Below are positions 61,189 to 64,000 of a DNA stretch of 64,000 bases, piece after piece (positions within the stretch are counted from its first letter, which is position 1; every line of letters starts with the position of its first letter). A program made the position numbers and the translations under genes. The notes under the pieces were generated by a model that made no database searches, was not told the DNA's origin, and worked only from the letters and a program-made list of their open reading frames with translations. The DNA lies in NCBI GenBank assembly GCA_001787755.1, contig MFYJ01000012.1, positions 62,001 to 126,000 of the forward strand. Reading direction: 5' to 3'. This DNA is from Candidatus Peribacteria bacterium RIFOXYB1_FULL_54_35. Lineage in GTDB: Bacteria; Patescibacteriota; Gracilibacteria; Peribacterales; Peribacteraceae.

Positions 61189-61998
61189 CTATTCCTTCAG
61201 AGAACGTGCGAGGGCCACCCATTCCTTCACCGTGAGCGTTTCCGGCCTCCTCCAGGCATCTATTCCCACTTTCTGCAGCGCCTCAGCGCCTCCCGGCTGC
61301 CTGCCGAGAGTGCCGCGAAGCATTTTTCGCTTCTGCGAGAAGGCAATTTTCGTGAGCGAGAATACTTTTTTCAGCGTTGCATCATCCGCCAGAGGTTTGC
61401 GGAAGCATTCAATGTGCAGCACCGCCGAGTGCACCTTTGGCGGAGGCAGGAAAGCTTCTGGTGGAACAGTGATGAGCATTTCAGGAGTACCGAAAAGGCC
61501 GACGAGGATTGTGAGGAGTCCTGCATGTTCCGTGTCGCAGATTTTCTCTGCGACTTCCTTCTGTATGAGGAGCGTAAGCGAGTCCGGATGTACTGCAGAT
61601 TCCAGGAAGACATGCCTCAGGAGCGGAGAAGTGATGTGGTAGGGGATATTCGCCACGATTTTGTACGGTTCTTCCGGCATCGGGACCCGGAGGGCGTTGC
61701 CCTGGATCACAGTGAGCTTCGGATCGTCTTTCACATATGTCTCGAGCAGGGGGATGAGGCGGTCATCCAGCTCAATCGCAGTGACTTTCGCGGCTCTGGC
61801 GAGGAGTTCCTTCGTGAGCACGCCGATGCCGGGTCCGATCTCCACGATACTGTCCTCCGGCCGGATCTCCGGAGCCTCCACGATGGTCTGGAGCACTTCT
61901 GCATCCACGAGAAAATGCTGCCCGAGGTCCGTATTGAGCCGGAGGGCATAGGTGCTGCAGAACTGCCGTATTTCCTCTTCCAGACTTGGCACGGCCAT
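61189..61998 (-). CDS. rsmA: 16S rRNA dimethyladenosine transferase
   Basis: RsmA (KsgA) dimethylates two adjacent adenines near the 3' end of 16S rRNA. It has 269 residues. LGQHFLVDAEVL, VEIGPGIGVLTKEL, AIELDDRL and NIPYHITSPLL are the standard AdoMet and catalytic segments; the C-terminal domain includes FSQKRKMLRGTL. The start at 61998 (MAVPSLEEEI) gives the usual length; a longer frame would cross the divergent promoter of the pheA leader. Confidence 0.95.
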   Translation of the reverse strand: MAVPSLEEEIRQFCSTYALRLNTDLGQHFLVDAEVLQTIVEAPEIRPEDSIVEIGPGIGVLTKELLARAAKVTAIELDDRLIPLLETYVKDDPKLTVIQGNALRVPMPEEPYKIVANIPYHITSPLLRHVFLESAVHPDSLTLLIQKEVAEKICDTEHAGLLTILVGLFGTPEMLITVPPEAFLPPPKVHSAVLHIECFRKPLADDATLKKVFSLTKIAFSQKRKMLRGTLGRQPGGAEALQKVGIDAWRRPETLTVKEWVALARSLKE

Positions 61999-62001
61999 AG
62001 C

Positions 62002-62029
62002 TTGACATTCCGTTTCAGGGAAGTAAAGT
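62002..62029 (+). promoter_or_regulatory. Consensus promoter of the pheA leader unit
   Basis: TTGACA (62002-62007), 16 bp, TAAAGT (62024-62029). Transcription should start near 62036, four bases before the leader peptide GTG. Confidence 0.75.
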
Positions 62030-62039
62030 GTACGCAATC

Positions 62040-62090
62040 GTGATCGCCCAGACATTGAGCTTCGGTTTCTTCTTTACCCCCTTTGCATAG
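62040..62090 (+). CDS. pheL: Phe-rich leader peptide of pheA (pheL-like)
   Basis: GTG at 62040 opens a 16-codon frame, VIAQTLSFGFFFTPFA, ended by TAG at 62088-62090. Five of its last nine residues are Phe, as expected for a peptide whose translation senses charged tRNA-Phe. It starts just after a consensus promoter and ends at a segment (GGGGAAGG, 62090-62097) that can pair with the terminator arm. It resembles the leader at 63471 (both begin x-IAQ). Confidence 0.75.
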   Translation: MIAQTLSFGFFFTPFA

Positions 62091-62163
62091 GGGAAGGAAC
62101 CTGAGCGTCTGAATTTTCTCTCTCAAGTCCGTACCTTCCCCCAGCGAGCAAGGTGCGTTTTTT
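62090..62163 (+). promoter_or_regulatory. Attenuator of pheA
   Basis: The terminator form is GTACCTT (62131-62137) with AAGGTGC (62150-62156), then T6 (62158-62163). The alternative form is GGGGAAGG (62090-62097) with CCTTCCCC (62134-62141), eight perfect pairs that break the terminator. A ribosome waiting at the Phe codons (62061-62075) leaves GGGGAAGG free; one that reaches the stop codon covers it. Confidence 0.7.
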
Positions 62164-62172
62164 GTTACCCGT

Positions 62173-63438
62173 ATGCCTCCATCACTTCCAGAGCAGGAAC
62201 GTATAGTCCCCGAAGGGGTGACACTCTGCGCTATGCAGCGTCTCTCGTTCTCCGATGAAGCCGCCCGGATGGTGCAGGCAACGGAGCCCAGTACGCAGAT
62301 CGTATATGCAGACGACATTGAGGGAGTGTGGCGTGCAATTCAGGAGGGGCAGTACGGCATGATTCCTTTCGAGAATTCTGCGAAGGGGGTGGTGTGGAAG
62401 CACTTCGACCGCCTGCGCCAGAGCGGGGTGAGGATTCTCGGTGAAGTGCATCTGCATGTGCGCATGTGCATGGGTGGTCTCCTGGATGCGCAACCCCGGG
62501 AAGCGACGCATGTCCACTCGCACCCCGTGGGACTTGCGCAGTGCAGCAGGCGTCTGGATGAATTAGGCATACCACCCGAGAAACGCATCCAGACTAGGGC
62601 CACGCCCGACGGGCCGAGGGACGTTGCCGAACTTCGGGATCCACGCCGCATCTGCCTTGCGTCACGGCTGGCGATAGAAGATGCGGGTCTTGCGGTTCTG
62701 GAAGACGAAGACAGCGTTGCGAATCACGGCCGCGCGAACATCACGCAGTTCTTTGTGGTGCACCGCAACGGGCAAGTGGAACTTCCTGAGAAGGAGAAGG
62801 AGTACCACGGTCTCATCGTCGTTCCCGAGTACGAGAGGATCGGCGTGCTCCACGATACGCTCGGGGTCCTGCGGGACGGGCGTGTCGATCTCCACTCGCT
62901 CCATTCCCAGCGTCTCAGGGGCGGGGATGACGGGTACCGCTTCTTCATGGAGATGGAGTCGGGAGGGGATAGCGCACTCTTCGACATCATGCGGCGGAAG
63001 CTGGCGAACTGTTCCGCGGTGCGGGAAGCCCAGTGGCTCGGGAGCTGGAACGGCCGTCTGTACTCCGATTCCATCCGCACGGAAGATCCGCCGCGCAGGG
63101 ATCCCCTCGCAAGGCCGCAGGTGGAAGGAGCGCCGCTGGATCCTTCCCGGAGGTACCATGGTTTGCAGTTCAGGCCGGATAACTACCCCGGTGTGCTCTT
63201 CGACACCACCGGTTACATCCGGACATCCGATGTGAACCTCAGGTTCGTGCACTCAAGGCCGGAGGGCCACAAGCAGTACGGCTTCCTCGTGGGAATGGAT
63301 TCCAGCCAGACCACACCTGAACGCTTTCAGCTCATGCTTGACCACATGCAGTGCGACTCCCATCTCCAGTATGTTCACTGGCTCCGCTCCACGGATTCCT
63401 TAAGCGAACTCCACGAATTGGAGCCAAAAGAAGATTGA
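62173..63438 (+). CDS. pheA: Prephenate dehydratase with two tandem ACT domains
   Basis: The enzyme turns prephenate to phenylpyruvate, the committed step to phenylalanine. It has 421 residues. The catalytic PDT domain shows MIPFENSAKGVV, HSHPVGLAQC and NITQFFVV near residue 195, where the family has TRF (the Thr is kept, Arg is Gln). Two ACT-like regulatory domains follow instead of one: YHGLIVVPEYERIGVLHDTL with LHSLHSQR, and YHGLQFRPDNYPGVLFDTT with FVHSRPEG. ACT domains bind Phe for feedback control. An attenuator precedes the gene; no chorismate mutase domain is attached. Confidence 0.9.
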   Translation: MPPSLPEQERIVPEGVTLCAMQRLSFSDEAARMVQATEPSTQIVYADDIEGVWRAIQEGQYGMIPFENSAKGVVWKHFDRLRQSGVRILGEVHLHVRMCMGGLLDAQPREATHVHSHPVGLAQCSRRLDELGIPPEKRIQTRATPDGPRDVAELRDPRRICLASRLAIEDAGLAVLEDEDSVANHGRANITQFFVVHRNGQVELPEKEKEYHGLIVVPEYERIGVLHDTLGVLRDGRVDLHSLHSQRLRGGDDGYRFFMEMESGGDSALFDIMRRKLANCSAVREAQWLGSWNGRLYSDSIRTEDPPRRDPLARPQVEGAPLDPSRRYHGLQFRPDNYPGVLFDTTGYIRTSDVNLRFVHSRPEGHKQYGFLVGMDSSQTTPERFQLMLDHMQCDSHLQYVHWLRSTDSLSELHELEPKED

Positions 63439-63470: not shown

Positions 63471-63545
63471 ATGATTGCTCAGAACTTCTTCTACGGTGCC
63501 TTCTGGTATTTCCCAACCGGGAAGTTGCCGTCTGTTCTGAGCTAA
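63471..63545 (+). CDS. Aromatic-rich leader peptide of the DAHP synthase gene
   Basis: A 24-codon frame: MIAQNFFYGAFWYFPTGKLP and VLS-type end, stop TAA 63543-63545. Residues 6-14 hold four Phe, two Tyr and one Trp, so the peptide can sense all three aromatic aminoacyl-tRNAs. The start MIAQ and the spacing of the aromatic block resemble the pheA leader. A terminator hairpin follows within 20 bases. Confidence 0.78.
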   Translation: MIAQNFFYGAFWYFPTGKLPSVLS

Positions 63546-63594
63546 TGTAACTCACTGTACGCGCACCTTCCCGAGAACCGGGAGGGCGTTTTTT
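63517..63594 (+). promoter_or_regulatory. Attenuator of the DAHP synthase gene
   Basis: The terminator is CCTTCCCG (63566-63573), loop AGAAC-like, CGGGAGGG (63579-63586), then TTTTTT (63589-63594). CGGGAAG at 63518-63524, inside the leader frame just after the aromatic codons, is complementary to CTTCCCG of the terminator arm and could form an antiterminator. Confidence 0.65.
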
Positions 63595-63618: not shown

Positions 63619-64000
63619 ATGATCATCACATTCGAACGAGATCATGCCCAAGGCGATGTCAGCGCGGTCTGCGATCGTATTCAAGCAACAGGTGAGCTCA
63701 AGTCTGTTGTTGAAAACGGTGCGCCCTATACCGTTGTCGCAGTCATCGGGGATATCAACGGGCGGTGCGAGACACTCATTGAGCAGCTTGGTGCGATGCG
63801 CGGGGTAGCCGGTGTGCAACGGATAGGGAAGAAGTACCAGCTTGCTGCACGTAAACATCCGGACCAGCAGACGATTGTCGATGTTGGACATGGCGTGCAG
63901 ATTGGTGGTGACAGACTGGCGATCGTTGCGGGGCCCTGCTCCATAGAGAGTGAGGGGCAGCTGCGCACCATCGCGCAGGCAGTGAAAAATGCAGGTGCAC
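63619..64000 (+). CDS. 3-deoxy-7-phosphoheptulonate (DAHP) synthase, 3' end outside window
   Basis: The first 127 codons are in view. Residues 1-75 form a ferredoxin-like regulatory domain (MIITFERDHAQGDVSAVCDR, VVAVIGDINGRC), and the catalytic barrel begins with GDRLAIVAGPCSIESE. This domain order is that of type I-beta (Thermotoga-type) DAHP synthase, which makes the first intermediate of the shikimate pathway from phosphoenolpyruvate and erythrose 4-phosphate. Its expression should be governed by the aromatic leader and attenuator upstream. The ATG follows a pyrimidine tract. Confidence 0.92.
   Translation, partial: MIITFERDHAQGDVSAVCDRIQATGELKSVVENGAPYTVVAVIGDINGRCETLIEQLGAMRGVAGVQRIGKKYQLAARKHPDQQTIVDVGHGVQIGGDRLAIVAGPCSIESEGQLRTIAQAVKNAGA

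Follow-up and report, generated by a model that had tools for sequence, protein, structure and literature searches.

The pheA and pheST leader attenuators (PheL) of Enterobacteriaceae are known systems in which a leader peptide controls genes of phenylalanine metabolism. Mycobacteria have cysteine-responsive attenuators with leaderless polycysteine ORFs, and in Salmonella the mgtCBR leader controls a Mg2+ transport/virulence operon. Proline codons are carried by this mgtCBR leader (PMC3641672). In Corynebacterium glutamicum, attenuators are described for trp, for ilvBNC, for aroF, whose leader reads Phe-Tyr-Phe, and for leuA, whose leader has four Leu codons (PMC4046766); the ilvBNC leader peptide is reported to need no ribosome-binding site (PMC4046766, citing Morbach 2000). 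Regulation in the Candidate Phyla Radiation (CPR), to which the ultra-small uncultured Candidatus Peribacteraceae belong, is little explored; CPR organisms are thought to depend on the amino acids of others, as has been inferred for Ca. Peribacter (PMC4736985).

We considered a stretch of 64,000 nucleotides (the window; contig MFYJ01000012.1) from Candidatus Peribacteria bacterium RIFOXYB1_FULL_54_35, whose genome is 1.56 Mb, in which an earlier reading made from the sequence alone had proposed a Phe-sensing attenuator before a prephenate dehydratase gene. The comparison with relatives supports that reading well, and we consider it very likely that the pheA leader is a ribosome-mediated transcription attenuator that senses charged tRNA-Phe and belongs to a Peribacteraceae-wide attenuator family whose scaffold has been adapted to the codons of Leu, Pro and other amino acids. 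The proposal was very probably right about the attenuator and too narrow in its scope, since the pheA leader is one member of a family-wide regulon.

Direct reading of the forward strand, on which all features lie unless stated otherwise, recovers every part that had been listed (promoter, leader, antiterminator and terminator pairings, T6). The -35 hexamer TTGACA (62002-62007) is separated by a 16-nt spacer from the -10 hexamer TAAAGT (62024-62029), and this TTGACA-16-TAAAGT pair recurs before most pheA-type leaders; the -10 hexamer has four of the six consensus bases. The leader ORF (62040-62090) begins ten nucleotides further on with GTG at 62040, ends with TAG at 62088-62090 and encodes VIAQTLSFGFFFTPFA in 16 codons, including the expected five for Phe (62061, 62067, 62070, 62073 and 62082), and homologous peptides are found in other genera. 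Segment 2, the antiterminator 5' arm GGGGAAGG (62090-62097), pairs with CCTTCCCC (62134-62141), whereas the intrinsic terminator (62130-62163; fold -8 kcal/mol, z -2.4) consists of CGTACCTT (62130-62137) paired with AAGGTGCG (62150-62157) and followed by T6 (62158-62163). Segment 3, CGTACCTTCCCC (62130-62141), supplies the 3' arm of the first pairing and the 5' arm of the second, and the two exclude each other. The T6 ends about ten bases 5' of the gene, the terminator thus separating the leader ORF from pheA, which starts with ATG at 62173 (62173-63438, 421 aa) and does encode a prephenate dehydratase (Pfam PF00800, E 9e-28). On the reverse strand, a divergent ksgA-like gene (61189-62001), named from sequence recognition and not by a family search, is the neighbour, and ORFs in L049, L053, L073, L077 and L110 place a similar gene at the same locus in other genera. 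The PheA proteins of the window and of G002 have about 420 aa, against about 295 aa in four aligned relatives, and the extra C-terminal stretch gives a weak ACT match.

A third pairing had been overlooked: the leader ORF itself builds a protector hairpin (1:2; 62049-62111), the predicted arms of which are CAGAC/GTCTG, CGGTTTC/GGAACC and CCCC/GGGG, and which overlaps the regulatory codons. The leader stop codon had been described as abutting the antiterminator arm in what was taken to be the right geometry. The two in fact overlap, the TAG sharing its last base with the first G of the arm, and the arrangement is peculiar to this genome: the ORF of the window stops at the arm and those of the other six pheA leaders continue through it (ending in SAGKEPMRL), so this geometry is a local variant.

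A second homologous leader of the same build, also missed at first, lies between pheA and the gene for DAHP synthase, the first enzyme of the shikimate pathway. Its ORF, MIAQNFFYGAFWYFPTGKLPSVLS (63471-63545), contains Phe, Tyr and Trp codons and is followed by a terminator (CTTCCCG/CGGGAGG plus T6, 63567-63594; fold -11.2 kcal/mol); the whole leader has a folding z-score of -3.3, and its match to the covariance model R1, which was built from 14 leaders including both of the window's, extends over 63471-63594 with 80.6 bits, this leader being itself a seed. The DAHP synthase gene starts at 63619 and continues beyond the end of the window at 64000 (Pfam PF00793, E 7e-77; full gene L042:2620-3666). 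At L042:11087-11692, about position 72086 in window coordinates and so outside the window, some 7-8 kb downstream of the DAHP synthase gene, lies a gene for a Trp repressor homologue (PF01371, E 3e-21), so that tryptophan control in this genome may be exerted by a repressor.

On folding alone, each element of the pheA leader is only mildly unusual (z-scores of -2.4 for the terminator, -2.6 for the leader hairpin, -1.75 for the antiterminator and -1.8 for the whole leader), and the case therefore depends on comparison. R1 gives the pheA leader 95 bits (E 4e-23 within the window), a score due in part to construction because this leader is a seed; leaders from other genomes that were not seeds reach E-values from 2.5e-28 to about 1e-6. 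Matches were obtained in 43 of the 74 Candidatus Peribacteraceae genomes at E<=0.01 and in 50 at E<=0.1, the latter threshold covering 30 of the 40 genera of the family. Outside it, R1 gave five weak matches in 279 other genomes of the class and a single match in a 380-genome sample of the phylum. Leaders in records named Candidatus Peregrinibacteria, Candidatus Peribacteraceae and Candidatus Peribacter are also matched.

Upstream of pheA in several genera, the leaders have the same build, with promoter, Phe-rich ORF and terminator, despite PheA proteins that are only about 39-54% identical; most of them contain GGGG(A/C)AGG and CCTTCCCC, and the majority of relatives have terminator-like ends. 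As evidence that would count against it, the sequence-only reading had named close relatives that lack the Phe codons or whose stems are no longer complementary, and neither loss is seen. All seven pheA leaders found keep their Phe codons (on average 5.1 Phe, 0.7 Tyr and 0 Trp per leader), while the leaders of DAHP synthase genes carry Phe, Tyr and Trp codons, and complementarity is kept family-wide with compensatory changes. Across an alignment of 52 aromatic leaders, 85% of the 1:2 hairpin is paired and 10 of its 16 pairs show compensatory changes, though alignments fitted by R1 lean towards this very structure; controls in which the hairpin was slid all score far lower in paired cells and covariation. 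The 2:3 core is 92% paired in the same leaders, and seven of its eight pairs have compensatory changes, where shuffling gives an expectation of 1.5 (0 of 500 shuffles). Pair counts for the Leu antiterminators give a similar picture of covariation.

Swap tests need no alignment of the arms, although the coordinates of the R1 matches defined the regions compared. Cognate arms gave -25.2 kcal/mol against -19.5 when permuted for 2:3, and -27.3 against -22.1 for 1:2 (0 of 20,000 permutations), so that on average exchanged arms pair 5-6 kcal/mol less well, and no permutation equals the cognate set. With one leader per genus (22 genera), cognate arms remained about 6 kcal/mol better and no derangement was as good. 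By its swap rank (0.57), the window's antiterminator belongs to the weaker ones.

The scaffold is used with other codons as well, a point absent from the earlier proposal. Among the weak R1 matches are leaders with Leu-rich peptides before leuA (MQQKGLLLGLLLLLLTEGGRLRA, for example) and with Pro-rich ones (MFLQATLPVPFTPPRAGRCLAA, for example), and Pro leaders precede glutamate 5-kinase in other genomes. Two further models for Leu- and Pro-type leaders, R2 and R3, match 55 and 49 of the 74 genomes, counts in which some cross-matches to aromatic leaders are included. The window's own genome has at least five leaders, before pheA, DAHP synthase, chorismate mutase (C2:52368), glutamate 5-kinase (C12:127232, just beyond the window) and leuA (C9:22458), the names leuA and glutamate 5-kinase being based on matches to two Pfam domains, HMGL-like and amino acid kinase, together with sequence recognition. 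A plain pattern, GGGAAGN{20,50}CTTCCC, was too noisy in this genome, with 14 occurrences against 9 for a backward-pattern control. Leaders also precede a LysE-type exporter gene (L084), ACT-domain genes, a gene resembling prephenate dehydrogenase, whose leader has Tyr/Phe codons (L068), and a class IV aminotransferase gene (PF01063). The leader of this last gene, VIITLRII (L203:329-457), has Ile/Val codons, which suggests that the scaffold also exists with a branched-chain specificity. A script assigned the downstream ORFs and leader classes, a few of which were corrected or excluded by hand, and some of these assignments may therefore be wrong.

Compared with the Enterobacteriaceae pheA and pheST attenuators, these leaders have in common a Phe-rich leader ORF, mutually exclusive 1:2, 2:3 and 3:4 pairings, a T-run and control of prephenate dehydratase. 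They differ in belonging to a lineage outside the Proteobacteria and in matching no known leader in Rfam, in having no Shine-Dalgarno sequence and a start codon that adjoins the predicted 5' end, in an ORF that usually traverses the antiterminator arm, and in a scaffold common to Leu and Pro attenuators. C. glutamicum has similar targets (DAHP synthase, leuA, ilv) and, in the reported case of ilvBNC, translates the leader with no ribosome-binding site; as it belongs to a distant phylum, convergence is likely, and the part of its description available to us presents neither a scaffold shared among specificities nor orphan small-protein targets. The mycobacterial polycysteine attenuators likewise sense a single amino acid through the codons of a short leaderless ORF, but it is a different amino acid in a different lineage. 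In Salmonella mgtCBR, too, Pro codons of the leader ORF influence terminator formation, whereas the Peribacteraceae Pro leaders would serve proline synthesis.

We infer a leaderless start, ribosome stalling and the switching itself as follows. RNA polymerase would start a few bases 5' of the leader start codon, and a ribosome would load on the nearly leaderless 5' end. When Phe-tRNA is plentiful, the ribosome would reach the stop codon and cover segment 2, leaving segments 3 and 4 to form the terminator; when it is scarce, the ribosome would stall at the first Phe codons (62061-62075), within segment 1, and open the leader hairpin, so that segment 2 could pair with segment 3 and pheA would be transcribed. 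If no ribosome is present, the 1:2 hairpin would form, with termination by default. The DAHP synthase leader would operate in the same manner with its Phe, Tyr and Trp codons.

For translation initiation, at least five of the six bases of TTGACA are present in 101 of 132 leaders, with a spacer of nearly always 16 bases, and the start codon is mostly found 7-12 bases 3' of the -10 hexamer, which predicts 5' UTRs of a few bases. Shine-Dalgarno-like motifs before 49 ORFs of the window, with the first ATG taken as start, are at background (8 of 49, against 17.6%). The 16S tail of the window's genome reads ACTTCC in place of ACCTCC. From these short predicted 5' UTRs, background motif frequency and altered 16S tail, the leaders are likely to be leaderless or nearly so, without Shine-Dalgarno sequences. 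The anti-Shine-Dalgarno region (L211, G000:C14) is CACTTCCTTA rather than CACCTCCTTA in this one genome, where an assembly error is possible.

The stalling step could also be brought about by arrest of the nascent peptide, as in TnaC or ErmCL, with the leader peptide itself, perhaps in response to a free amino acid, halting the ribosome in place of a shortage of charged tRNA. We regard this as improbable. Residues beyond the Phe codons are conserved (Gln, Gly and Ala-Gly-Lys-Glu-Pro), and the Pro-Pro of Pro leaders could slow ribosomes unaided, but the conserved positions are encoded by paired RNA (CAG, GGC, GCGGGGAAGGAGCC), and the window's leader has no C-terminal part at all. Leu and Pro leaders share the RNA arms and not the peptide: the GGAAGG arm is kept in a different frame, read as AGKE in aromatic leaders and AEGR in Leu leaders, which indicates that the RNA and not the peptide is conserved, and codon identity tracks the pathway. 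Still less probable is a leader that binds a protein or tRNA (TRAP-like, T-box) or a riboswitch, with the small ORF incidental. The TrpR homologue about 8 kb downstream indicates that other regulators exist in this genome, yet an Rfam scan gave no match at the gathering threshold, T-box, riboswitch and known amino-acid leader families included (at E<=5, only a sub-threshold miRNA match elsewhere in the stretch), an ORF with pathway-matched codons is kept in about 100 leaders, and the hairpin made of the ORF itself covaries. That an ordinary terminator came by chance to lie beside a Phe-rich random ORF, a reading to which the mild single-element z-scores would lend themselves, is refuted by the one-leader-per-genus swap test, and the homologues in 30 of 40 genera and the compensatory changes make its probability negligible.

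The attenuation reading also receives support from the composition of the controlled proteins, in which depletion of the cognate amino acid is expected because they would be made during starvation for that same amino acid. With homologous clusters counted once, and after three leader classes had been reassigned manually and six uncertain loci excluded, Leu content is 5.5% against 9.6% in Leu-controlled proteins (p 1e-5), Pro content 1.5% against 5.6% in Pro-controlled ones (p 7e-4) and Phe content 2.1% against 3.3% in those behind aromatic leaders (p 0.002). This depletion supports, independently of the RNA evidence, a probable expression under starvation. The PheA of the window is not Phe-poor (3.1% Phe).

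Gene order is conserved as ksgA, Phe leader, aromatic leader and Pro leader, and in several genomes a small protein (about 60-200 aa) replaces the enzyme behind the leader with this order unchanged. Such orphan targets, of several families and poor in the cognate amino acid, are found at L102, L049, L053, L103, L105, L110, L106, L086, L083 and other loci. None of ten orphan proteins scanned matched Pfam, and PDB searches with the predicted folds of two families returned nothing credible (best E 1.8 and 3; model pLDDT 74 and 82). We lean towards a modular, lineage-specific starvation regulon, in which changes of codons would have fitted a single scaffold to Phe, Tyr/Trp, Leu, Pro and perhaps Ile/Val. 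Many members, having no enzyme gene behind them, would have ceased to control synthesis and would switch on cognate-poor orphan proteins. If so, these host-dependent ultra-small bacteria would have an amino-acid-specific starvation response.

Our literature search, which covered few subscription papers, found no paper joining attenuation and leader peptides with CPR bacteria and, in agreement with the sequence-only reading, no description of attenuation for Candidatus Peribacteraceae (Peregrinibacteria/CPR); the Ca. Peribacter genome paper does not mention it (PMC4736985). Given this coverage we judge novelty cautiously: the mechanism is known, and what appears to be new in the literature searched is its occurrence in this lineage, the reuse of one scaffold and the orphan targets. 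Family-wide attenuators could give a read-out, from genomes only, of the amino acids that limit each species, and they point to small uncharacterized proteins that would be produced only when the cognate amino acid is limiting. About 100 natural variants of one RNA switch with differing amino acid specificities are thus available, and they suggest that attenuation coupled to leaderless initiation can serve as a standard means of regulation.

Some leaders depart from the common build. In L053 and L105 (G081 and G030), a long perfect palindrome, e.g. CCACGCCTTTCGCGAAAGGCGTGG, replaces segment 4, and these leaders have no usual T-run nearby. Inserted into the Leu leader ORFs L191, L192, L193, L194, L195 and L200 is a sequence with CCTGAGC...GTCGAAGGG or a variant of it; the insertion recalls dispersed palindromic repeats and in some of the ORFs adds LPALSxVEG in frame. 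Weak model matches in a different family of the class, L080 and L094 (G157 and G156), have aromatic-rich leaders, MIRTHSYSFSFYFRRRGEGKVRMV and MPFISFSYSFYFRSRGEGEVFVG, that precede similar-looking proteins of 105-109 aa, and from these matches the scaffold may be older than the Peribacteraceae.
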